Of a stretch of DNA of 34,484 bases, positions 1,307-31,973 are shown one piece after another. Source of the DNA: a virus; IMG/VR virus record IMGVR_UViG_3300037246_000813, positions 1-34,484 of that record, one strand, 5' to 3'. The notes under the pieces were generated by a model. It was not told the origin of the DNA and did no database searches. It was given only the letters and a program-made list of their open reading frames with translations. Position 1 is the stretch's first letter. Every line of letters begins with the position of its first letter. Made by a program: the position numbers and the translations under genes.

Positions 1307-1537
1307 ATGGAATTTATGGATATGGTGAAAGACTTCGGCCCGTTGGTCGGGATCATTCTGTTCTTCATCTGGCGTGACTGGCGACGCGAAGAGAACCTGG
1401 TCAGCCGCGTCATGAAGCTGGAAGAGTTCAACACCGAGGTTCTGACGGGACTGGTCAAAGAGACCACTGCTGTGATCGCAACAAACACCGAACAGCTTCG
1501 CCTAATCAACACGATGATGGATAGGAAAAATGGTTAG
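1307..1537 (+). CDS. Small holin-like membrane protein (BhlA/UviB type)
   Basis: A protein of 76 residues. A short N terminus leads into one hydrophobic segment (FGPLVGIILFFIW, residues 10-22), then a basic cluster (RDWRRE) and a polar helical tail with heptad-like spacing. This plan of one membrane helix, a basic stop and a coiled-coil tail is that of BhlA/UviB-like holins, which make membrane lesions at lysis. I chose the ATG at 1307 because it follows the preceding stop by 10 bases and places the membrane helix at the N terminus; an upstream in-frame ATG at 1256 would overlap the fibre gene. No endolysin is seen next to it. It could instead be another small virion or membrane protein. Confidence 0.5.
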   Translation: MEFMDMVKDFGPLVGIILFFIWRDWRREENLVSRVMKLEEFNTEVLTGLVKETTAVIATNTEQLRLINTMMDRKNG

Positions 1538-2033
1538 ACCGAACTACAATCTGATCCGATTCATCCGTCGGTGTATCCGTGCGATGAAGAAAGAGTATGG
1601 CAGCCCGGTCACCGTCTACAAGCTGGAGTCCACCACCGCCAACCTGGAGACTGGCGCGAAGACCGACGTTCGGTCCTCGATCTTTGTGCGGCGTGCCGTA
1701 GTGCTGCCGAGCAGGTTGACTCGTGACGCCGTCCAGACTATCTCGCTGATCTCCGCCAACAAGCAAGTGGTGCAGGGCGGGACGTACGACCCTGGTCGAC
1801 GCACATTCATCATCGACCGAACCGATGTCCCCAACTGGGTTCTCCAACATGACGACTGGCTCGTCTACAATGACAGCCGGTACGACATCAAGAGCATCGA
1901 CGAGTTCGAGCAGAACACCGGCTGGGTCATCGTAGCCAAGAAGGTGGAAGGCGCGACCGTCTACCAGGACCGCATCGGCAACTCGCACGCCAACATGGTT
2001 ATCAGCCAATCAGTGACGGGGGTGATAGTATGA
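1530..2033 (+). CDS. Probable head-tail joining (head closure-like) protein
   Basis: A protein of 167 residues that begins inside the end of the holin-like gene and ends in an ATGA overlap with the next gene. A basic N terminus (residues 1-20) is followed by a beta-rich stretch: VRRAVVLPS, RTFIIDRTDVPNWVLQHDDWLVYNDSRYDI and GWVIVAKKVEGA. That layout, including the 'DWLVYNDSRYDIKSI' strand pair, resembles the small barrel-like head-completion or stopper proteins that close the portal channel. Its place directly before a tail-completion candidate and the tail tube supports this. No catalytic motif is visible. The call rests on size, predicted fold and position. Confidence 0.5.
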   Translation: MVRPNYNLIRFIRRCIRAMKKEYGSPVTVYKLESTTANLETGAKTDVRSSIFVRRAVVLPSRLTRDAVQTISLISANKQVVQGGTYDPGRRTFIIDRTDVPNWVLQHDDWLVYNDSRYDIKSIDEFEQNTGWVIVAKKVEGATVYQDRIGNSHANMVISQSVTGVIV

Positions 2034-2521
2034 GTATGAAGGATCTACCCCGCTGGCTGCTCTCCTCGCTGGCGAAGCATCTCAATACCATCGCCGTCGC
2101 CAACGACATCCCTTTCTTCGTAGAGGGTGTCCATGAGCGAGACGAGGACCGCATGTTGCTGAGTCACGCCGAACTGCGAGTGACCGGCCCGTACACCAAG
2201 CAAATAGACAGTGGTCGCTACAATGTGGACGTGGTTGCCAACATCATGCTCATTTCGCTCATGGATGCGAAAGGCGATGCGTACGAGATAATTCAATGGG
2301 GCGGCATCTTCCAAGACGCCCTGCTCTCGCCGATCCCTGTATACAAGTACGGCAACGGTGCCGACGACACGGGATTGCTGCTGGGATGCCTACGACACAA
2401 GAAGAACCGAAGGGATCAAGCCAAGCTGTTCCACTTCGGTCAGATGGATAGAACAGACAGAGTTCGGCAGTCAGAACTTGACGCCGTCTTAGAGATCCTG
2501 GTCTCAGACGACGAACTCTAA
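2030..2521 (+). CDS. Probable tail terminator/tail completion protein
   Basis: A protein of 163 residues, translationally coupled to the previous gene by ATGA at 2030. It lies between a head-tail joining candidate and the tail tube, where siphophages encode the tail terminator. The central part (residues about 48-105) alternates strands and helices (RYNVDVVANIMLISLMD, then a helix and a Pro/Tyr-rich turn), as expected for the alpha/beta fold of terminators. The C terminus is charged. A possible terminator and an inverted repeat follow it, separating it from the tube gene. I recognise no sequence motif, so the role is inferred from position. Confidence 0.42.
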   Translation: MSMKDLPRWLLSSLAKHLNTIAVANDIPFFVEGVHERDEDRMLLSHAELRVTGPYTKQIDSGRYNVDVVANIMLISLMDAKGDAYEIIQWGGIFQDALLSPIPVYKYGNGADDTGLLLGCLRHKKNRRDQAKLFHFGQMDRTDRVRQSELDAVLEILVSDDEL

Positions 2522-2574
2522 CACGAATCACTCCACAGTGTTGGCCGCGCGGGCTCACACGGTGGCCTGACCTA

Positions 2575-2600
2575 CCGCCTCGGGCGGGTTTGTTGTTGTA
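2575..2600 (+). terminator. Possible weak terminator before the tail tube gene
   Basis: A short GC hairpin, CCGCC (2575-2579), loop TCG, GGCGG (2583-2587), is followed by a T-rich run (GTTTGTTGTTGT). The stem is only five base pairs, so attenuation is more likely than full termination. Confidence 0.4.
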
Positions 2601-2617
2601 CCGATAGCGCGTATCGG
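2601..2617. repeat. Short perfect inverted repeat in the tail tube leader
   Basis: CCGATA (2601-2606) and TATCGG (2612-2617) flank GCGCG. It sits 43 bases upstream of the tail tube ATG, between the weak terminator and the ribosome binding site. It could be an mRNA-stabilising hairpin for a heavily expressed virion gene or a protein binding site; the sequence does not decide. Confidence 0.4.
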
Positions 2618-2659
2618 AAACACTTGAACTTTCATTCCCTCTCAGAGGAGATACCAACC

Positions 2660-3415
2660 ATGGCACGAATTGAAATGCGGGACGTGACCATCTATATCCA
2701 GGATGGTCTTGCAGGCACGGCACTGTTGTCGGCCAACGGCACCGCGAACGACACCGATCTGGACATCGAGACCGTTGTTCTGAACACGGCGACCACGAAT
2801 CTGGTTCCGATCGGCGCCCGGCTGTACCTGCCCGGCGAGACCACGAACACGGTTCACACCGTGACGGGGCGAACGCCGTCCGATGATGGCCCGACGCTGA
2901 ACCTCGTCATCACCCCGGCTCTGGGTGCTGGTAGCTACAACAGTGGCAACAGCGAGAACGCGGTCACCTTCATCAATCAGCGCATCGAAGTGATGATCGG
3001 CGAAGGCAACCTGACCTGGACCGAGACGAAGGAATACGAGTACCTTCGCGAACGCGGCGACCTGGACTCGGTCAAGGAAGCCGACGAGCAACCGGTCGAG
3101 ATGTCCTTGGAGTTCATCTACGAGTACATCAAGACTCAGTCCGGTCAGACCATCACGCCGAACGACGCCCTGAAGCAGCAGGGTGAGGCGTCCGAATGGG
3201 TCTCGTCCTCGTCCGATCTCTGCGAGCCCTACGCCGTCGACATCCTTGCCAAGCATTGTGTGCCGTGTGGCACCGACCAGGATGAAGACGTTCTGTTCAC
3301 CGACTTCCGTTATGAGTCTCTGGACTTCGACACCAGCGAGGCCACCGTTGCCCTCGCTGGCCGCTGCAACGTCAGCGAACCGACCGTCACGCGCTCGGAT
3401 GACTCCGAGTGCTAG
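2660..3415 (+). CDS. Major tail tube protein
   Basis: A protein of 251 residues. I chose the ATG at 2660 because AGAGGAG (2644-2650) lies nine bases upstream; the in-frame extension to 2624 has no such site. The N terminus (MARIEMRDVTIYIQDG) and the later 'INQRIEVMIGEGNLTWTETK' stretch with the pattern ERGDLDSVKEADEQPVEMSL are typical of siphophage tube subunits, which polymerise into the hollow tail. A pattern of two well-spaced cysteine pairs lies near the C terminus (CEPYAV, CVPCG). It has its own leader and a strong hairpin directly after the stop, as expected for a highly expressed virion gene. It is followed by the tail chaperone, the conserved order in this virus type. Confidence 0.72.
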   Translation: MARIEMRDVTIYIQDGLAGTALLSANGTANDTDLDIETVVLNTATTNLVPIGARLYLPGETTNTVHTVTGRTPSDDGPTLNLVITPALGAGSYNSGNSENAVTFINQRIEVMIGEGNLTWTETKEYEYLRERGDLDSVKEADEQPVEMSLEFIYEYIKTQSGQTITPNDALKQQGEASEWVSSSSDLCEPYAVDILAKHCVPCGTDQDEDVLFTDFRYESLDFDTSEATVALAGRCNVSEPTVTRSDDSEC

Positions 3416-17130: not shown

Positions 17131-17161
17131 AGCCACGACCGGCAACGGTCGTGGCTTTTCT
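17131..17161 (+). terminator. Strong rho-independent terminator of the virion unit
   Basis: AGCCACGACCG (17131-17141) and CGGTCGTGGCT (17146-17156) form a perfect 11-bp stem with a GCAA tetraloop, followed by TTTTCT. On the minus strand it is followed by TTTGATG, so it may also act weakly on the convergent unit whose last stop lies at 17160. Confidence 0.9.
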
Positions 17162-17762
17162 AAGTCCCGAGGAATCGCATGAACTCGGCGTACAGTTTCG
17201 CAGTGGCAAGGCAGTCGCATAGGGCGTCGTGAGCGTTGTCCATTGGGATGTCGAACCGCTTGCATAGTGGGCCGAGCCCGAGCAGATGGAACGGGTGCTT
17301 CCTCCCGTGCCAGACGTAGAGATCATTGATGGTGGCCGCCAGAGTCATGGTGTCCCGTGGGTGGATGTGCCACATGTCCCACAGTGCATCCATGCCCAGC
17401 CAATGCGTCAGGAAACCTCGCTCGAATGCCCAGTTGTGGGCCAGCGGCACCAGCTTCCTTCCGTAGCCAAGCGGCAACTTCTTGAACCACTCCTCGAAGA
17501 GTTCGATCCCCCGCTCCTGACTCACACAGTCCTGGAGCGATCTAAGGGAGATCCCATGCTTCCGCTCAGCTTCCTTGCTGGTACGTTTTGGGAAGTCAGG
17601 GGCGATGTTCAAGTAGAAGAACCGCATGTCCTTGCGCGGCTCGAAGTTGTGGTCGAGCGGAACACACGCGATCTGGATGATCTCGTTCCACCCGGCCAGC
17701 AACCCGGTCGTCTCAACGTCCACCGCACATAGGACGTTGCCGTTCATGTTGAGCAGACTCAT
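17160..17762 (-). CDS. DnaQ-like 3'-5' exonuclease (DEDDh)
   Basis: A protein of 200 residues. The ATG at 17762 overlaps the upstream stop (ATGA) and has GAGGAGGA before it; an in-frame ATG 21 bases further up is less likely. Exo I is AVDVETTGL (D15, E17), Exo II is HNWAFERGFL (109-118), Exo III is NAHDALCDCLATAKLY with H178 and D183. This is the RNase T/DnaQ fold, removing 3' nucleotides from DNA or RNA for proofreading, repair or nuclease defence. In Exo II the expected Asp (NxxFDxxFL) is Glu114. It is the third gene of the minus-strand replication unit. A stand-alone proofreading or RNA-trimming role is possible. Confidence 0.85.
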   Translation of the reverse strand: MSLLNMNGNVLCAVDVETTGLLAGWNEIIQIACVPLDHNFEPRKDMRFFYLNIAPDFPKRTSKEAERKHGISLRSLQDCVSQERGIELFEEWFKKLPLGYGRKLVPLAHNWAFERGFLTHWLGMDALWDMWHIHPRDTMTLAATINDLYVWHGRKHPFHLLGLGPLCKRFDIPMDNAHDALCDCLATAKLYAEFMRFLGT

Positions 17763-18952
17763 ACTTCCTCCTCTTGGTCCCACCGCGTTTGCTCGGCCAC
17801 ATCCTTCAAGGCGTCGGGGGTGTGGGTCTCCACGCAGTCTTCCATGTGCTGTTCATTCTTGGAGAGGAGTTGGGCGAGAGCGTCAAGTTCGATGGCATCG
17901 GCCACCTCGGCTTCGGCCTCGACCCTCACCGCTTTGTTCATCTCTTCTTGCGTCAAGCAAGTCATCCCCATGTTATTGGCTTTCTTCAAGGCGTCGGCCA
18001 GCAACTTAACGTCGGCCTTCACTGCTGCGATGTACTCTGCCTTGTCCGCCTTATCGGCTTCCTCATGTGCCTTCTCCACCCTGGCTTTCGAGTCTTCCGT
18101 AACCTGTGCAATGGCTACCTCCACGGCCCTCGCCTCCGCGTCGGAGACGAACTTCTGCACATGCTGATCTAGCAGGCTCTTCTCCAGTTTCTTGAACGAC
18201 TCCAGTTTCCCGGGGCCATCCTTGATCTCGAACATGATGTCACAGGTCTTGCTGACCACGGGGAGCAACGGGTAGGGCACGCCGGGCTTGAACGTGATTT
18301 CGGGTCCGGCCCCCAGTCCGGCGTCCGGATCGCAGCAATCGTCGCAGGTGCAGTCGGGGCAGAAGCCTTGACAAGTGGATTCGGTCTTGACCTTCGGCTC
18401 TATGGTTGTGCTGTACTGTCCGTTCAGTTTCTTTTCTAGCGTTATAGACGAGCCTAGCTTCTCGATGTCCCCCACCTTGATCTCGAACGCAGGCGAGGGC
18501 ACATCCCGTAGGGCGGGAGGCTCTTGGTCTGTGGCCTCATTGACGAACACCGCAGAAAGGCCACGCTCCAACCTATCCTCTTTTGCCTCCCGTTCGGCCC
18601 GTATTCTCCCCCAGTGGGTGGCCCGCTCGGCGAACACTACCTCGTCGATAGGAGGGGAGGTGGAGTTGAGTTCGTGCAGGGCACACATGTTCCACACGGC
18701 GTGGGCGATGTGCAGACAGCCGGAGTCCTTGTCGTACTCTTCCCCCGTGAAGATGTATTGCAGGTGGCGGAACATGGAGTCCCAGTATTCCTCGTCCGGC
18801 TTGTTGCCTTTCTTCCAGTTGCCCTCCTCGTATTTGATCCCGCCCATTTCCTTGACGCGGGCGATGGCTTCTGCCATCCGAGGGAAGCTTCTCATGAAGT
18901 AGGACAGCTTCGGTTTGCCGTCATTGTATCGCATCGCCTCACTCATTCTCAT
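17759..18952 (-). CDS. MazG-like dATP/dGTP diphosphohydrolase with long C-terminal extension
   Basis: A protein of 397 residues (395 if the second ATG, 18946, is used, which gives better spacing from AAGGGAG). Residues 8-95 match the phage dATP/dGTP diphosphohydrolase N-terminal family: RYNDGKPKLSYFM, IKYEEGNWKKG, DEEYWDSMFRHL and DKDSGCLHIAHAVWNMCAL. The acidic residues E42, E43, E54, E55 and D76 are candidates for metal binding. Related MazZ enzymes remove pyrophosphate from dATP/dGTP and, in 2-aminoadenine phages, feed the PurZ pathway. Residues 100-397 are unusual: a Cys cluster at 194-207 (CQGFCPDCTCDDCC) and an Ala/Glu/Lys-rich coiled coil near 250-330. It overlaps the primase-helicase stop. 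The activity is inferred from the N-terminal domain only. Confidence 0.68.
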   Translation of the reverse strand: MRMSEAMRYNDGKPKLSYFMRSFPRMAEAIARVKEMGGIKYEEGNWKKGNKPDEEYWDSMFRHLQYIFTGEEYDKDSGCLHIAHAVWNMCALHELNSTSPPIDEVVFAERATHWGRIRAEREAKEDRLERGLSAVFVNEATDQEPPALRDVPSPAFEIKVGDIEKLGSSITLEKKLNGQYSTTIEPKVKTESTCQGFCPDCTCDDCCDPDAGLGAGPEITFKPGVPYPLLPVVSKTCDIMFEIKDGPGKLESFKKLEKSLLDQHVQKFVSDAEARAVEVAIAQVTEDSKARVEKAHEEADKADKAEYIAAVKADVKLLADALKKANNMGMTCLTQEEMNKAVRVEAEAEVADAIELDALAQLLSKNEQHMEDCVETHTPDALKDVAEQTRWDQEEEV

Positions 18953-21680
18953 TCTCCCTTATGACTCTGGCCCCTGACTTGATGTACGGAACGCCCGGCG
19001 TCGCATCAGGATTGAATGTGATGTTACCGATGATCTGCTGATTGACTTTCGCTCCCTTGCCGACCGGGAACTGCTCGTCGAGTTGCTTCCGGATGATCCG
19101 GTCTCGCCAGTCGCTCCGGTACACTTCGTCCAGCGTAGACAGGAATCTCTCCTTGAAGACAGTGAACTTGATTGCTTGACCGGGAATCTCGTAGCAACAC
19201 TGCTCGATGAACTGAGCAAGTTCGTTCGCATTCCCAGCCGCCGCATCTAGCTTACCTTGCGTCTCGATGACCGGAAGCATGAGACGGCTGGTCGCCTCGG
19301 GGATGTCCAGGTCCATGATCGTCCGCATGAAGTGTGGGGCCTCCGCTCGCAGCAACTCGCGGAATCGGTCGCGGGGAATCTCTGCCTCCAATGACGGCAC
19401 GTTCATCGCTGTGATTCGCGTGTCGCCGGGGAACACCGGCAGGCTTGACCGGCTGTTCGACATCTGCACGAAGTGCAAGGTCGACAGCATGTCCTCTGTC
19501 TGTTTGTACATTGCTCGGATAGAGATCGTCAGGCCGGTGACCCATTCCTTCAGTTTGTTGTACGCTGCCCCTCCCGCCTTGGAGATGTCAACCTCGTCCA
19601 CCACGGCCAGGACAGCGCCCTCCAACTCACCATTGTAGCCCTGGTCGGATGTGAGGGCCCGGTCAGCCTTGGCCACCCCGCTGGTCATCAACATGGAGAT
19701 GGACTCATGGAAGCTGGACTTGCCGCTGTTCTGTGGCCCGTACATAAACAGATAGGGCAGCTTGCCGAACGGGTTCTGCAACATGCAGGCCACCCACGCG
19801 GTCAAGTAGTCCCCGCCTGTGATGATCCCCCAGTCCTTGCACCACGGCAACGAGTGGATATAGTCATTCAAGTCCACCCCGCAGTGATTCATGAGGAGGT
19901 CCCAAGTCGGATGGATCGGCGTCTCGCCTTCCTGCAACTCGACTGGGGCATACACAAACTGAGCGGCATCGCGGTTCCATCGTCGGTCGCCGGGGTACTC
20001 AGCACCGAAGGGTTCGTTGATGAGCATCCACGCCTTGAAGATTGCACTGCCGAGAATCGGGTCAGGCTTCAAGACACCTTCCGACATCAGGAGTGCCTTG
20101 ATGTTCTCTCGCGGGTGGGTGACCCACAGGGCGGTCGCGTCCTGCAACACCCACGAGTCAAACACTCCGCCGCCCTGACCCGACCGCTTCAGGGCTCGCA
20201 TCTTGTCGTCGAGCGAAGACCACAGCTTCTCGTCTTCGACTTCCTTGTCCGAAGTGTTGACAGACCCCCACAGGACGATCTCCCAGCCGCGAGCAGTCTT
20301 GGCGTACCTCGGGAACATCTTCTTGTCGTCGCTGCGTTTCTTCTCGATGCAGAGCAGCGTACGGTCGTTGTCGGTGTGAAGCGACAGGCCACGACCCACA
20401 GCCTCTTCAGGGAGGAACACATCGGCCTCAAGGATTCGGAGGGCTTGTCTCAGGTCTTCGATGAAATCGAACATGTAACCCTGGGCTTCCTTCGTTCCTT
20501 CGTACCCACCACAGGCAAGGCATATCTGACGCAAGGTGGCGGGGTAGTTGTAGGTGGTGTGGGTCCACTTCCCTTGGCTCCCCCACAGCGGACACTCTTC
20601 CGTGCCTTCTCCAAAGCGGTACACATCCCACGCCCCGTTCGGTTTCGGTCGCATGAAGCAATTCGGTTTGCCGGGGTCCGTGTCCTGTGAGTTCGTGTCG
20701 AACAGCCCGAGGAGTGGTGTGAACCGCTCGGCCAAGTCGTCGAACACATACTTCAGCCCGCCAGTGTGGCCCTGCCACAGGTGGTGGTCGTGGACCCACA
20801 GGGCAGAGTGCCCGGTGTCTTCCAGAGCCGCCAGTATTTGGAGGTGCCGTTCATCGAGCGGAACCTGCGCGACGGCTTGCGTCATCTCGTCGAGTTCGTC
20901 GCCCTTCGTTGTACCGTCGGGCGTCCATCCCTGAACGCGCACTTTGGCCCTCGCCCCCGAGACAACTTCGATATTGTCCTTCCAATTGGGAGGAACAAAA
21001 TCCGAGGTGAGGATCTGAGTCGCTGGTTTGATGAGTTCGTAGCCACGGTTCTCGGCCGTGGCGTTCGTGTGGTGAATCCACATGATCCCGCCGCAGACAT
21101 CGACACTGCCACTGATGTCCATGCCGGTGGCCTTGGCGATCATCGGGAGGAAGGCACGGGCGAGGGCTGCGTGTTCGTGGTGGTTCTTGGTCACCGGATA
21201 GGGATCTTGGAACCAGACATAGATGTGTCGGCCCAAGCCTCGTGTGCTTCGGACCACTTCCAGCCAGGGCACGTCCAGCGTGTCCAGGGCGGCGATTTGT
21301 TCTGGGCTGACCCCGTCGGCGTGGTCGACGAGTGAATCGAAGTCGAAGCCCAGCCCGACAGATACCTTGTCCTTCCAGTTCCACCACGTCGTCCCTATCG
21401 CCTTCATGCGGTTGGCGACAATATATTGGATGGGCGGATCGCTGAAATTGGCGTTGCCGCCAGCGTCGTATGGCCAGCGGTGCGGGCCGAAGACTTCCCC
21501 GCCGTCCTCAAACTTCGTAGAGTCACCAACCTTCGTGCCCGCCTTGTGGCACATGATCTGCGTCTCGAAGCGGGATGGGTTGGCGCCCCAGCGGGCAATC
21601 AGGTCGTGGTTGTTGTGTTCCTTGGAGATGACGTTGTCGTAGTAGAGTTTGTATGCCTCGGTGACTGACGGGTTGCGCAT
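18939..21680 (-). CDS. Primase-helicase (AEP-like primase plus SF3-type helicase)
   Basis: A protein of 913 residues from the ATG at 21680, preceded by GGAGG (21685-21689). Residues 108-200 contain AEP primase-like motifs: GLGFDFDSL (D113, D115), SxxGxGxH as STRGLGRH (145-152) and D194 in SGSVDVCGG. Residues about 640-760 form a superfamily 3 helicase: Walker A GPQNSGKSS (648-656), Walker B VLAVVDEVD (690-698), motif C FVQMSNS (737-743) and a probable arginine finger R755 in GDTRI. Such proteins unwind origin DNA and lay primers. It is transcribed divergently from the ParB-like gene from the 21681-22181 region. The helicase call is firm; the primase motifs are fair. Confidence 0.87.
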   Translation of the reverse strand: MRNPSVTEAYKLYYDNVISKEHNNHDLIARWGANPSRFETQIMCHKAGTKVGDSTKFEDGGEVFGPHRWPYDAGGNANFSDPPIQYIVANRMKAIGTTWWNWKDKVSVGLGFDFDSLVDHADGVSPEQIAALDTLDVPWLEVVRSTRGLGRHIYVWFQDPYPVTKNHHEHAALARAFLPMIAKATGMDISGSVDVCGGIMWIHHTNATAENRGYELIKPATQILTSDFVPPNWKDNIEVVSGARAKVRVQGWTPDGTTKGDELDEMTQAVAQVPLDERHLQILAALEDTGHSALWVHDHHLWQGHTGGLKYVFDDLAERFTPLLGLFDTNSQDTDPGKPNCFMRPKPNGAWDVYRFGEGTEECPLWGSQGKWTHTTYNYPATLRQICLACGGYEGTKEAQGYMFDFIEDLRQALRILEADVFLPEEAVGRGLSLHTDNDRTLLCIEKKRSDDKKMFPRYAKTARGWEIVLWGSVNTSDKEVEDEKLWSSLDDKMRALKRSGQGGGVFDSWVLQDATALWVTHPRENIKALLMSEGVLKPDPILGSAIFKAWMLINEPFGAEYPGDRRWNRDAAQFVYAPVELQEGETPIHPTWDLLMNHCGVDLNDYIHSLPWCKDWGIITGGDYLTAWVACMLQNPFGKLPYLFMYGPQNSGKSSFHESISMLMTSGVAKADRALTSDQGYNGELEGAVLAVVDEVDISKAGGAAYNKLKEWVTGLTISIRAMYKQTEDMLSTLHFVQMSNSRSSLPVFPGDTRITAMNVPSLEAEIPRDRFRELLRAEAPHFMRTIMDLDIPEATSRLMLPVIETQGKLDAAAGNANELAQFIEQCCYEIPGQAIKFTVFKERFLSTLDEVYRSDWRDRIIRKQLDEQFPVGKGAKVNQQIIGNITFNPDATPGVPYIKSGARVIRENENE

Positions 21681-21704
21681 GTTTCCTCCGTTCCTCTTTT
21701 GTTG

Positions 21705-21742
21705 TCTATTATCCTCGGGGTCCTCGAAGCGTGCATTTTCCG
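21705..21742 (-). promoter_or_regulatory. Promoter/operator-like element of the primase unit
   Basis: On the minus strand it reads CGGAAAAT, 12 bases, then GACCCCGAGGATAATAGA. GATAAT (21708-21713) fits a -10 box. The start of transcription would fall near 21701, about 20 bases before the ATG, with GGAGG in between. The same arrangement with the same spacing occurs at 22141-22178 for the divergent gene. No canonical -35 box sits at 17 bases; a TTGACG (21741-21746) lies 27 bases from the -10. Confidence 0.62.
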
Positions 21743-21794
21743 TCAAATGCCGTGAAGTGACGAAAACTCCCACCTATGAGGGGGCGGAGTTTTG

Positions 21795-21839
21795 CCACTT
21801 AGGGGACGGAGATAGAGAAAAACTCCGTCCCCTAAGTGG
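21795..21839. repeat. Perfect 17-bp hairpin
   Basis: CCACTTAGGGGACGGAG (21795-21811) pairs with CTCCGTCCCCTAAGTGG (21823-21839) around an A-rich 11-base loop. No T run follows on either strand, so it is not a standard terminator. It could be a replication, packaging or regulatory site. Confidence 0.8.
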
Positions 21840-22034
21840 GTGGTAAGTACCTCCAATGAGGGAGCCCTGACCCTCGCAGGTGGGCCTTTCCCCCCAGGTG
21901 TGGGGGCGGAGTTTTTTCCTATCTCCGCTCCCTCCGCCGGGTGGTATGCAAGCGCAACCCACTGCACTCAAAGGACTTATACTAAATCCATGAGAGGGGG
22001 CGGAAACCGGAGCAACAGAACTCACTTTCGTTAC

Positions 22035-22056
22035 AAACTTGTAGTCCGACAAGTTT
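22035..22056. repeat. Perfect 8-bp inverted repeat
   Basis: AAACTTGT (22035-22042) and ACAAGTTT (22049-22056) with loop AGTCCG. It is AT-rich and symmetrical, as expected of an operator for a small dimeric regulator; no regulator gene is seen next to it. Confidence 0.5.
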
Positions 22057-22140
22057 TGCTATAGGGGAGTGTCTGAGACCTCCGCCTCCGGCGCCCCTTC
22101 TGGGGGGTGTGCGGAAACGCCGAAAATTCCCGGTATCATG

Positions 22141-22178
22141 CGGAAAATAGACCCCTCGGAGACCCCGAGGATAATAGA
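22141..22178 (+). promoter_or_regulatory. Promoter/operator-like element of the ParB-like gene
   Basis: CGGAAAAT (22141-22148), 12 bases, GACCCCGAGGATAATAGA (22161-22178): the same element as at 21705-21742 in the opposite orientation. GATAAT (22170-22175) would act as -10. Six bases separate it from the ATG at 22182, so the mRNA may start at or next to the start codon. Confidence 0.62.
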
Positions 22179-22181
22179 GCC

Positions 22182-23123
22182 ATGACAGACAACCCACTCC
22201 GATACCTGCCGATTCGATCCATTCGCAAGCCGAGGATCTGTCTCCGACCGATCCAGCGGAACACGCCGGAGTACGCTGAACTGGTCGAGTCCGTAAGGAA
22301 AGATGGGATACTCCAGCCCGTGCTGGTTCGCCCCATGGACTCTGAGTATGAGATGGTGGAGGGTCGGCATCGGATGGAGGCCGCCAAGGAAACGGGCCTC
22401 ACTGAGATCCCCTGTATCATCATGGATCTCACAGACGACGAGGTGTTGATAGTACAACTGAAGTGCAATGCGATCCGTCCGATCACACGGACGTTTGAGT
22501 ACGCTCGCCGCCTGAAGATTCTCATGGAAAAGGACTTGACACTTAACGAACTCAGCGCCATGATAGATAAGAGTCCCAAGTGGATTCGCAATCAGATTCA
22601 ACTTAACCGACTGTGCCACGAGGCGCGGCCAGCAGTCGAACGCGGCGAGATACCGATGGCATCGGCCCTGGCACTGGCAAACTTGCCCGATGAACTGCAA
22701 CCGAAGTTCATTGACGACGCGGTAGCCATGAAGCAATCGGAGTTCCTCCCGCGTGCGAAAGAAGCACTGAGAGACTTCAAGGCATACCTGTTGCGGTTGC
22801 AGCAAGAGGATAGGGAGGTTGGTGCAGCAAAGCCCAGCCTACGTGCGATCAATGTACTGAAGCGTGAGGCGGCCACATCTGAACAAGCGAAGCTAGTGCT
22901 GAAGCGCACTAAGGCCAAGACCCCTCTCAACGGCTGGGAGGCGTGTATGGCTTGGGTATTTCGCCTGGACCCACTCACAGTAGCAAGACGAAAAGCCGGA
23001 AACAAGGAGCGCGATAAGAAAGCAACCAGAGCAACACGCGAAGAGTATCGTAAACTGAACCGACAGCTAATCAAGAAGTTTGTCAATCCTCAATCCGAAA
23101 CCGGAGACTATCGACATGGGTAA
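22182..23123 (+). CDS. ParB-like nuclease/partition-type protein
   Basis: A protein of 313 residues. I chose the ATG at 22182 because the in-frame extension upstream runs through the promoter repeat. The ParB N-terminal domain is clear: IRSIRKPRICLRPIQRN, GILQPVLVR, then the box GRHRMEAAKETG (61-72), and a Cys-Asn-Ala-Ile-Arg segment (95-99). Residues 118-143 form a helix-turn-helix (LTLNELSAMIDKSPKWIRNQ). In chromosomes and plasmids these proteins bind parS and clamp DNA; phage members may be nucleases or regulators. No ParA partner is visible in the window. The C-terminal third is basic (residues 225-313). It overlaps the next gene by eight bases. Confidence 0.8.
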   Translation: MTDNPLRYLPIRSIRKPRICLRPIQRNTPEYAELVESVRKDGILQPVLVRPMDSEYEMVEGRHRMEAAKETGLTEIPCIIMDLTDDEVLIVQLKCNAIRPITRTFEYARRLKILMEKDLTLNELSAMIDKSPKWIRNQIQLNRLCHEARPAVERGEIPMASALALANLPDELQPKFIDDAVAMKQSEFLPRAKEALRDFKAYLLRLQQEDREVGAAKPSLRAINVLKREAATSEQAKLVLKRTKAKTPLNGWEACMAWVFRLDPLTVARRKAGNKERDKKATRATREEYRKLNRQLIKKFVNPQSETGDYRHG

Positions 23124-28848: not shown

Positions 28849-30721
28849 GACAAAGAAACGACAGAAGCAACTGGACGCGCGACGCAAAGTGCGACGAGCC
28901 CTCGCGCCTCTAGTGAAGCCCGCCGCATCCTCGCTGCTGAATATCCCTACTGGTAAGGGCATTCCATCCGTCGATCTCCCGGCGATGTACAAGGCCGTCG
29001 CGAACCGAGATCCCAAGGTGTGGCCTGCCATCTTGGAATACCTGGCCTACTTTCAGGACCACCACTACCGGCAGTTCGGCACCGACGCGATCATGCTCAT
29101 CAACGAGTTTGTCGCCGTGGTGTTCGCCGCCATGGCTATGAAGGACTTCACGCCAGAGAAGCAGGAGGCCGCCCATCTAGTGCAGATGGGTCACATCTTC
29201 CAACATCTGGTGGCCACCTCGTCATACCGAACCACCGATGCCCTCCTGGACTCCGTGCTCCCGATGCAGGGTAACGTGCCGAAGCTTCTCTTTCTCTTGA
29301 ATCCGAGATGTGAGATCCAGCCCAACCAATCGAAGCTGTTCGACGCCGACCCGTTCCTGTCGTCGATCTGGTTCCTGACCTACATGATGGGAATCTCGTC
29401 GCCGACAAAAGCGATCCAGAAGAACATGTACCGCCACCTCCACAACATGGATGAGCGGTTCGTGCCACCCCACCCGTCGGTCTCCGGCGTGTACTTCTCC
29501 TGCACGTATCACCATCCCGACAGTGCCCGGCGGGTCAAGAAGATCATCAACGGGGCGATCAAGAATAGTGGCGAGGCGCCGAAGTTCGTGAACACGCCTG
29601 ACAAGAACTCGATTGCGATCGTCACGAACAAGTGGCACCGCAACCATGCAGTCTACAAGTCAGCCTCTCCGCTCGTTGAACAGTTGAAGGGCAAGTACAA
29701 GCTGACGCTAGTGTGGACCGGCCCGCCGGATCAGGTTCCAGACACACGGGTCACCGACTACTTTGACAAAGTGGTTTACTGTCACTTCACCCCGGGGGCT
29801 GGCCTGACGATTCCGGAAGAGTTGCTCAACAATGATTTCCAGATGATCTACTTTCCCGACATCGGGATGACCGATGAGTCCATCTGGCTGTCGAACTTCC
29901 GCATGGCCCCGATCCAAGTGGTGGGTTATGGCCACCCCGATACCACGGGCGAGGGCAACGAGATCGACTACTTCATCGGCGGCACAGTTGAAAAGGATTC
30001 CACGTCGGCCTACGCCGAGACCATGGTCCTGCTCCCCGGCCTGGCTCAAGAGCCCGCGTGGCCGACGGCCGAGCGGAAGCACAACCACAACGATGACGAT
30101 GTGGTCCGCGTGAACTGCGTGTGGGGCCCCGACAAATACAACCACACCCTGTTGACCGTGCTGGCCGAGATCAACAAGCGTGTCGACCAGTACAAGACCG
30201 TGAAGCTGGAGTTCCACCTGTTCGCGAGCCCCGGCATCAACCGCTATGCCGCCTTGCCATCGTTTGTTCGTGACGTGACAGCCATGCTGCCGAACGCCGT
30301 GATCCACTCGGATCAAGAGTATTATGACTACATGGAGAACGCCGAGCAGCATGACTTCTCCCTGAACTCGTTCCCGTTCGGGTGCTACAACGTGCTGATC
30401 GAGAGCCTGTACATGGGGTTGCCTTTCCTCACGTTGATGGGCGAGCGGTTCTACAATCGGGCAGGCATGTGGTTGAACGATCAAGTGGGAATGTCGGAGA
30501 ACAACTTCGACGACCCACAGGAACTTATCAACAAGGCGGTCACGCTAATTACCGATGCGTCGGAATTGAAGCGGCAGCGCGACCACCTAGCATCCCTCGA
30601 CCTGAAGGAATGCCTCTTTACGCTGAAAGGTAACCATTTCTTAGAGGCAACCGAGTACATCATCGCCAACCACCCATTCACTGAAACGAAGATCATTGGA
30701 GAGAACAATGACGAAGCTTAG
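28835..30721 (+). CDS. OGT/SPINDLY-like glycosyltransferase (GT41 type)
   Basis: A protein of 628 residues. The start is TTG at 28835, supported by GGAGG (28824-28828) at six bases; the first ATG in frame would remove the basic N terminus. The N terminus (to 35) is strongly basic. Residues about 40-180 are helical and may be a degenerate repeat domain. The C-terminal half resembles OGT-type enzymes: MAPIQVVGYGHPDTTGEG (about 356-373), DYFIGGTVE, and NSFPFGCYNVLIESLYMGLP (about 510-529) with the usual 'P-x-x-T/N-x-x-E-x-L-x-x-G-x-P' pattern. It probably transfers a sugar from a nucleotide donor to a protein, likely a virion protein. The preceding methyltransferase may modify the sugar. Confidence 0.72.
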   Translation: MKKTRTKKRQKQLDARRKVRRALAPLVKPAASSLLNIPTGKGIPSVDLPAMYKAVANRDPKVWPAILEYLAYFQDHHYRQFGTDAIMLINEFVAVVFAAMAMKDFTPEKQEAAHLVQMGHIFQHLVATSSYRTTDALLDSVLPMQGNVPKLLFLLNPRCEIQPNQSKLFDADPFLSSIWFLTYMMGISSPTKAIQKNMYRHLHNMDERFVPPHPSVSGVYFSCTYHHPDSARRVKKIINGAIKNSGEAPKFVNTPDKNSIAIVTNKWHRNHAVYKSASPLVEQLKGKYKLTLVWTGPPDQVPDTRVTDYFDKVVYCHFTPGAGLTIPEELLNNDFQMIYFPDIGMTDESIWLSNFRMAPIQVVGYGHPDTTGEGNEIDYFIGGTVEKDSTSAYAETMVLLPGLAQEPAWPTAERKHNHNDDDVVRVNCVWGPDKYNHTLLTVLAEINKRVDQYKTVKLEFHLFASPGINRYAALPSFVRDVTAMLPNAVIHSDQEYYDYMENAEQHDFSLNSFPFGCYNVLIESLYMGLPFLTLMGERFYNRAGMWLNDQVGMSENNFDDPQELINKAVTLITDASELKRQRDHLASLDLKECLFTLKGNHFLEATEYIIANHPFTETKIIGENNDEA

Positions 30722-31973
30722 CAAGGATACAGTGGGAGAAGTCAAAGAACTTCTGTCAGAGAAGCAACTCACCCAAAAGCAGATCGGCACCAAGTTTGGC
30801 GTCAGCCGCTCGGTCATCAGCGACATCGCCTGTGGGCGGGTCCACAAGGATGTGCAGTCGAAGACGGAAGCCACCGAGGAAGAGTCTCTGATCTTCGGTT
30901 TGCAGTCCGAGATCACCCACCTTCGTGAGGAGCGCAACCTCGCCCGTCGGCAGTTGAAGCAGGCAGCCAAGAGTCATGGCTTGTTCCAAGCGATTGCCGA
31001 AGAGATGGAAACCCGCGTGACGCCGATGATCGCCCTGCCCAAGTCCCGCATCGTTCGCGCCGTCCCGGCCACCGTCGAGGAGCACCTTGTCCTGCACATC
31101 TCCGACGGCCACCACGATCAGGTCGTCACCCGCGATGACACGGGCGGGCTGGAGAAGTACGATTTCCCGATCAGTCTGTGCAGAGGCGAGCGTCTCGTCG
31201 ATTCGATCCTGAAGTGGACACAGCAGACTCTTGCACCCCAGTTCAAGTTCCCCTCGCTGACAGTGCTGGCGTACGGCGACCACACGTCGGGCGAGATCCA
31301 CGGGGCGGCCCAGCGGTCGTATTTCCGGAACTGCTTCAAGAACTGCCACGCCATTGGCCAGTTCCACGCCCTGATGTACCGCGACCTCGCCCCGTACTTC
31401 GAGCAGGTGAACATTGTGTACGTGCCGGGCAACCATGGTAGGAGATCAATGAAGAAGGACTATCACGGTGCGCACGACAACTGGGATTACCTGATCGCGA
31501 CGACGGCCATGCTGTACTGCCGCGACCTGGACAACGTGGACTTCACCATCCCGAACGCATTCTCAGCGAACATCGACATCGGCGGCGTCGGGTTCCATGT
31601 CTTCCATGGCGACGACGTGCGGAGTCAGTTGGGCATCCCCTGGTACGGGCTGGAGAAACGACGCCACCGTCTGATGGCTCTGGAGAACGTGCGGGAAGGC
31701 GTCCCGATCCGCTACTACTGTTGCGGTCACTTCCATCGTCCCGGCAGCACGACCGAAGTCAACGGCGAGATGCTCATCAATGGTGCGTGGCCTGCCACCG
31801 ACGCCTATGCGTACAACTCGCTGGCCGGGTTCACCGAGCCTAGCCAACTGTTGCATGGTGTCAACAAGAAGTACGGGATCACATGGAGGCTGCCCGTCAA
31901 GCTGCGATGCTCGTACGAGCACAAGGGACCGAAGCGTTACAAACTCGCCAACATGGACGACATTTCTATCTAG
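30708..31973 (+). CDS. HTH-metallophosphoesterase
   Basis: A protein of 421 residues from the ATG at 30708 with GGAGAG (30699-30704). Residues 1-48 form a helix-turn-helix (LTQKQIGTKFGVSRSVISDI). A coiled-coil-like linker (60-105) follows. Calcineurin-type motifs are complete: D133xH135 (ISDGHHD), GDH (190-192), GNHGR (241-245), H297/H300 in FHVFHGDD, and GHFH (340-343). It would bind two metals and hydrolyse phosphodiesters; the HTH suggests a DNA target or self-regulation. Such proteins are common in phages, with unknown substrate. The start overlaps the glycosyltransferase end by 14 bases. Confidence 0.82.
   Translation: MTKLSKDTVGEVKELLSEKQLTQKQIGTKFGVSRSVISDIACGRVHKDVQSKTEATEEESLIFGLQSEITHLREERNLARRQLKQAAKSHGLFQAIAEEMETRVTPMIALPKSRIVRAVPATVEEHLVLHISDGHHDQVVTRDDTGGLEKYDFPISLCRGERLVDSILKWTQQTLAPQFKFPSLTVLAYGDHTSGEIHGAAQRSYFRNCFKNCHAIGQFHALMYRDLAPYFEQVNIVYVPGNHGRRSMKKDYHGAHDNWDYLIATTAMLYCRDLDNVDFTIPNAFSANIDIGGVGFHVFHGDDVRSQLGIPWYGLEKRRHRLMALENVREGVPIRYYCCGHFHRPGSTTEVNGEMLINGAWPATDAYAYNSLAGFTEPSQLLHGVNKKYGITWRLPVKLRCSYEHKGPKRYKLANMDDISI

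Follow-up and report, generated by a model that had tools for sequence, protein, structure and literature searches.

The middle promoters of phage T4 are served by MotA and AsiA, MotA being an activator that is used with the host sigma70. The stoperators of the cluster A mycobacteriophages are repressor sites, many per genome: short, asymmetric, private to a phage subgroup and co-varying with a DNA-binding protein. Few cultured phages are known to have a sigma factor of their own whose promoters are proven. In Salmonella phage 7-11 the sigma factor SaPh711_gp47, which has a region 4, steers the host core enzyme to phage-only promoters; eight of these have been mapped and experimentally proven in the cultured phage, and their motif, GTAAtg-(16)-aCTA, is bipartite (PMC8948821, PMC4331800). 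Between phages 7-11 and phiEco32 the promoter locations are conserved but the sequences are not (PMC8948821, PMC4331800). The phiEco32 sigma, gp36, redirects host RNA polymerase to the middle and late genes; it has no recognizable region 4 and its promoter is a single element, tAATGTAtA, and the two sigma factors have been judged to be independently acquired (PMC8948821).

The uncultured phage locus described here has a divergent control region with the same element at both ends. Very likely, this element serves as a promoter specific to the phage, and probably as one that is read by a phage-encoded sigma70-family factor on the host RNA polymerase core.

The paired element and its locus

The window, i.e. 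the whole 34,484-base stretch of viral DNA that was analyzed, is apparently a fragment of its genome; its relevant features are listed in Table 1. The pattern CGGAAAAT-N12-GACCCCGAGGATAATAGA has exactly two matches in it, both with 0 mismatches and facing outward, which confirms what a sequence-only reading had proposed: a 38-base element at both ends of the control region, with exact boxes and an exact 12-base spacing. No extra copies were found in the window at up to 3 mismatches, and 100 dinucleotide-preserving shuffles gave 0 matches, i.e. none is expected by chance; the 18-base box searched alone returned the same two sites as the full pattern. The similarity between the copies runs further upstream, forming arms of 52 nt that are 77% complementary. 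Downstream, the plus copy ends 3 nt 5' of the ATG of the ParB-like gene (22182) and the minus copy 24 nt 5' of the primase ATG (21680).

Table 1. Coordinates of the features of the divergent primase/ParB-like locus in the window
Feature	Position	Strand	Basis
Primase/helicase gene (Pfam DUF5906), heads the minus unit	18939..21680	-	Pfam
Remainder of the minus unit: dATP/dGTP diphosphohydrolase-like and exonuclease genes	17160..18952	-	
GGAGG ribosome-binding site of the primase gene	21685..21689	-	sequence
Putative promoter element, primase side, CGGAAAATGCACGCTTCGAGGACCCCGAGGATAATAGA	21705..21742	-	pattern match
Putative private -10/start-site core, primase side	21705..21722	-	pattern, comparison with relatives
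-35-like box CGGAAAAT, primase side	21735..21742	-	pattern match, boxes of close relatives
Full similar arm, primase side, 52 nt	21705..21756	-	arm comparison
Control region between the putative promoters, with inverted repeats and AAACTCC/GGAGTTT repeats	21757..22126	.	
Full similar arm, ParB side, 52 nt	22127..22178	+	77% complementary to the opposite arm
-35-like box CGGAAAAT, ParB side	22141..22148	+	GGA-type boxes of close relatives
Putative private -10/start-site core GACCCCGAGGATAATAGA, ParB side	22161..22178	+	pattern, comparison with relatives
Putative promoter element, ParB side, CGGAAAATAGACCCCTCGGAGACCCCGAGGATAATAGA	22141..22178	+	pattern match
ParB-like protein gene (ParB_N + HTH_ParB), heads the plus unit	22182..23123	+	domain search

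A scan with the host sigma70 consensus found a single weak site in the plus copy (TAGACC-16-GATAAT, 9/12) and no site in the minus copy, so that recognizable host -35 and -10 elements are not present at both. The earlier remark that a canonical -35 is lacking was thus nearly right, being exact for the minus copy and having to allow for the weak site in the plus copy. In close relatives a GGA-type box (GCGGAAAAT, GTGGAAAAT or GCGGACTNT) lies 26-27 nt 5' of a TAGA, a distance that would suit a -35 element and a transcription start. At most of the ParB-side copies of these relatives the start codon comes 0-5 nt past the TAGA; the ParB message is therefore probably leaderless or nearly so, and the primase message probably has a ribosome-binding site. 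An alternative explanation, that the similar sequences encode a common N-terminal peptide (ENxxxxDPEDNR, in frame upstream of both ATGs), was discarded, as stop codons break the frame in several relatives.

The AAACTCC/GGAGTTT motif of the control region occurs there 4 times in the window, 5 times in the relative L003 and 7 times in L006 (about 0.1 in shuffles), and is scarce in the other close relatives. The inverted repeats between the two arms suggest a possible origin. Elsewhere in the window (30696-31973) an N-terminal helix-turn-helix is fused to a phosphoesterase-type exonuclease, an arrangement also present in relatives.

Private element pairs in related phages

The exact element has no match in public viral contigs or in bacterial genomes because its sequence is private to each phage. 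The locus has no nucleotide relatives among cultured phages, only distant protein matches, and a search of bacterial genomes for clues to the host returned no relatives. Phage L003, whose ParB is 51-54% identical to that of the window, has the same divergent layout; its element, TGCAGTATAATACTATAGACAA, differs from the window's and is identical at both L003 ends. The L003 primase (1402-3192 and 2-1435, both on the minus strand) is split past PGKPN; the intervening intein-like stretch, CLCADTKVITREG..., contains a change of reading frame.

Searches with two genes, the conserved helicase and another neighbor, gave about 100 loci, from which the 58 distinct viral contigs with a divergent primase/ParB-like gene pair were kept. 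The primase-side sequence of each was scored against its own ParB-side sequence and against the ParB-side sequence of every other phage; positions that overlapped were masked. In 48 of the 58, the phage's own outward pair exceeded the 99th percentile (score 12) of the 3,306 between-phage comparisons, whose mean was 8. Two of these, L084 and L015, matched on other repeats, which leaves 46 clear cases; L084 likely has a real pair at its unit starts (TGAACC...). A clear outward pair is absent in 10 of the 58 relatives. The ParB-side element ends at most 30 nt from the ParB-like start in most of the scored relatives. In L022, L027, L037, L057 and their relatives there is also a conserved GCGTTTACACGC-type motif between the putative promoter and the primase start.

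In related phages the element is thus conserved as an architecture and not as a sequence, the latter being mostly private to each phage. A search of relatives for the element itself, which had been recommended as a check, succeeds for the arrangement and fails for the letters; to take a lack of conservation in relatives as a refutation would be misleading, because it is the arrangement that is kept.

A third copy and a diverged sigma family

When long contigs were scanned with their own element, a third copy turned up in G002 and in G004, in both cases ahead of the same orthologous gene. This ortholog was then located in three more genomes and the element was present in all three (5/5 in total). 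A clear ortholog was found in 11 further genomes. Nine of these allowed a comparison with the genome's own pair: seven have a clear third copy and L032 and L062 showed no match to their pair; the other two genomes (G048 and G016) fell outside the comparison with their own pairs unavailable. Scans that covered whole or nearly whole contigs gave three copies in each of 11 genomes (G002, G004, G005, G007, G008, G011, G012, G013, G015, G018 and G019), one at the start of each main transcription unit. The motif is therefore shared by several transcription units, two in the window and three in these 11 related genomes. Together with the architecture of the 48 scored relatives, this late-operon copy supports the suggestion that one regulator, or one phage-specific promoter type, serves both the primase and the ParB-like units. 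The idea that the paired copies bound an invertible segment or form a recombination site was rejected because in relatives the third copy lies tens of kb away.

The gene that follows the third copy is conserved (L109:1789-2283, L113:738-1250 and orthologs) and its product is a small protein in which long helices are combined with a C/C/C/H cluster. In G002 the gene has no Pfam or PHROG match and is followed by terminase, portal and coat genes; as the first gene of this packaging/structural operon, it is a candidate for the small terminase. In L113 (2432-4303) there is also a cysteine-peptidase-like ORF with an intein-like insertion.

The sequence-only reading had considered an activator or an altered sigma likely, and the latter fits the presence of a sigma70-family gene in most of the long related contigs. 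The canonical sigma region 2 model matched in just 4 of 26 contigs; it was weak matches of region 4 models, in ORFs of 200-280 residues, that led to the family. These ORFs form one homologous family (19 aligned members), no member of which was found in some shorter contigs. A profile of the family matches SigF (2e-18) and RpoH (6e-11) in the PDB, then SigA, RpoS, FliA and RpoD; the PHROG "RNA polymerase sigma factor" matches 12 of the 19 members; and the AlphaFold model of one member (pLDDT 88) has sigma chains as its top Foldseek matches. For the candidate of L003, the closest relative with the gene in hand, only a weak structural match was obtained (best E 0.02). The proteins have a region-4-like C-terminal domain and their Pfam scores are below the cut-off, and we therefore regard them as a sigma family that has diverged from the standard ones. 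Profile, PHROG and structural matches thus agree that this phage group encodes a sigma70-family protein. A single-subunit RNA polymerase (PF00940) gave no match in the 26 contigs, a result to be read with the control genomes, which also gave none. A further, more canonical ECF-type sigma gene occurs in four genomes (G014:23914, G016:94216, G017:6096 and G048:20570), in G017 directly upstream of the packaging-operon gene.

No sigma ORF was matched among those of the 34-kb window, which ends 12 kb past ParB; in relatives the gene lies 14.7-34.6 kb past ParB, so we infer its presence in the window phage, as we do the transcription start sites and the binding of sigma.

The sigma family evolves fast: G013 and G065, for instance, have ParB proteins that are 91% identical and sigma proteins that are 51% identical. 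In partial Mantel tests on 23 genomes, with element sequences picked by hand, element divergence was associated with sigma divergence given ParB (r=0.25, p=0.0025) and less so with ParB given sigma (r=0.15, p=0.06), in a set where sigma and ParB similarities are themselves strongly correlated (rho 0.90). In one clade of 8, where these two similarities are nearly uncorrelated, the element followed sigma (r=0.40, p=0.015) and not ParB (r=0.03), and a smaller set of 17 genomes gave a sigma-element association in the same direction. Sigma divergence thus tracks the element better than ParB divergence does; the effect is modest.

Candidate readers of the element and known systems

In the reading that we prefer, the phage sigma70-family factor, bound to the host core polymerase, would recognize the element with CGGAAAAT as its -35 contact and GACCCCGAGGATAATAGA spanning the -10 element, the discriminator and the region of the start. 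The minus copy would drive the primase unit leftwards and the plus copy the ParB-like unit rightwards, and a third would be expected past the left end of the window, before the packaging/structural operon, so that one sigma could switch on all three units. Sigma and promoters would change together, and the element sequence would therefore be private to each phage.

The ParB-like protein had been suggested as the binder, and it does have ParB_N and HTH_ParB domains and a gene that abuts one copy, as would suit operators for the autoregulation of its own gene and the repression or activation of the primase unit. However, ParB and the element are decoupled. L057 and L058 have 94% identical ParB proteins and DNA that is 91% identical over 3 kb, yet their elements are unrelated: one phage carries TTTTGGGAGTCTTGTATAGGTG at each end, the other TTTGCGCACTACTGTAGATGCC, and both ends have switched together (the sigma genes of this pair fall beyond the contig ends, so the comparison is one of ParB and element). 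Conversely, L057 and L079 share 35 identical element bases and have ParB proteins only 54% identical. The ParB helix-turn-helix, including its recognition helix, is largely conserved while the elements differ completely, so that the site does not co-vary with the ParB DNA-binding domain as a parS-like operator should; no shared palindrome is seen in the elements, and the association with ParB is not significant once sigma is accounted for. ParB is thus unlikely to be the reader, and we give operators of this kind very little credence.

The elements could also be private operators of an unrecognized phage repressor or activator, similar to stoperators, with the host sigma reading the promoters. 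The private sequence does span the spacer and the -10 region, a common position for a repressor, several close relatives have a TATAAT-like -10, and the coordinated switch between L057 and L058 resembles an immunity swap. We nevertheless consider this improbable: the 25 Pfam families shown for 68 G002 ORFs include neither an integrase nor a repressor, promoters are a better fit for sites that number three per genome and lie at the three unit starts, and a sigma gene is present whose divergence tracks the element. As remote as the ParB operators, in our estimation, are ordinary host-sigma promoters that have no private reader and are kept alike by recombination between the inverted copies. The arms are indeed inverted repeats, and in some phages the similarity is longer than a promoter (70 nt in L099, 80 nt in L101), but in most the shared stretch is just about 20-50 nt, many elements lack a host-type -10/-35, and the same sequence recurs in the third copy tens of kb away.

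If the sigma reading is correct, this large uncultured lineage apparently has a single sigma family, matched by dozens of versions of its promoter. The promoter positions, three per genome, are fixed by synteny, and this makes a joint change of sigma and promoter specificity directly testable; candidate orthogonal sigma/promoter pairs are on offer, as is a rule for mapping transcription in this large phage group, namely to compare unit starts within genomes and not between them. More tentatively, and with the odds somewhat against it, the lineage as a whole may be in a race in which the fast-evolving sigma family and the three promoters of each genome keep changing together. The transcription systems of even close relatives would then be mutually incompatible, co-infecting phages would be insulated from each other or would evade silencing, and the group would be a natural library of orthogonal pairs.

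Among the known systems, the locus would work like that of phage 7-11, with its sigma70-family protein, its bipartite motif and promoter positions that are kept though the sequences differ. Unlike 7-11 with its eight promoters, these phages have three copies per genome of an unrelated motif, with a putative promoter pair where the primase and ParB genes diverge, and their apparently single family of homologous sigmas goes with dozens of versions of the promoter. As in phiEco32, a phage sigma would redirect the host polymerase, but here the promoters seem to have two parts and the C-terminal domain of the sigma proteins resembles region 4. With the stoperators the elements share the features of short asymmetric private sites that co-vary with a protein; they differ in being three per genome, at unit starts, in a phage group that carries a sigma gene. 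Finally, as with MotA/AsiA of T4, a phage factor would take the place of the -35 contact in a group of promoters, except that what is encoded here, unlike MotA, is a sigma-like protein.
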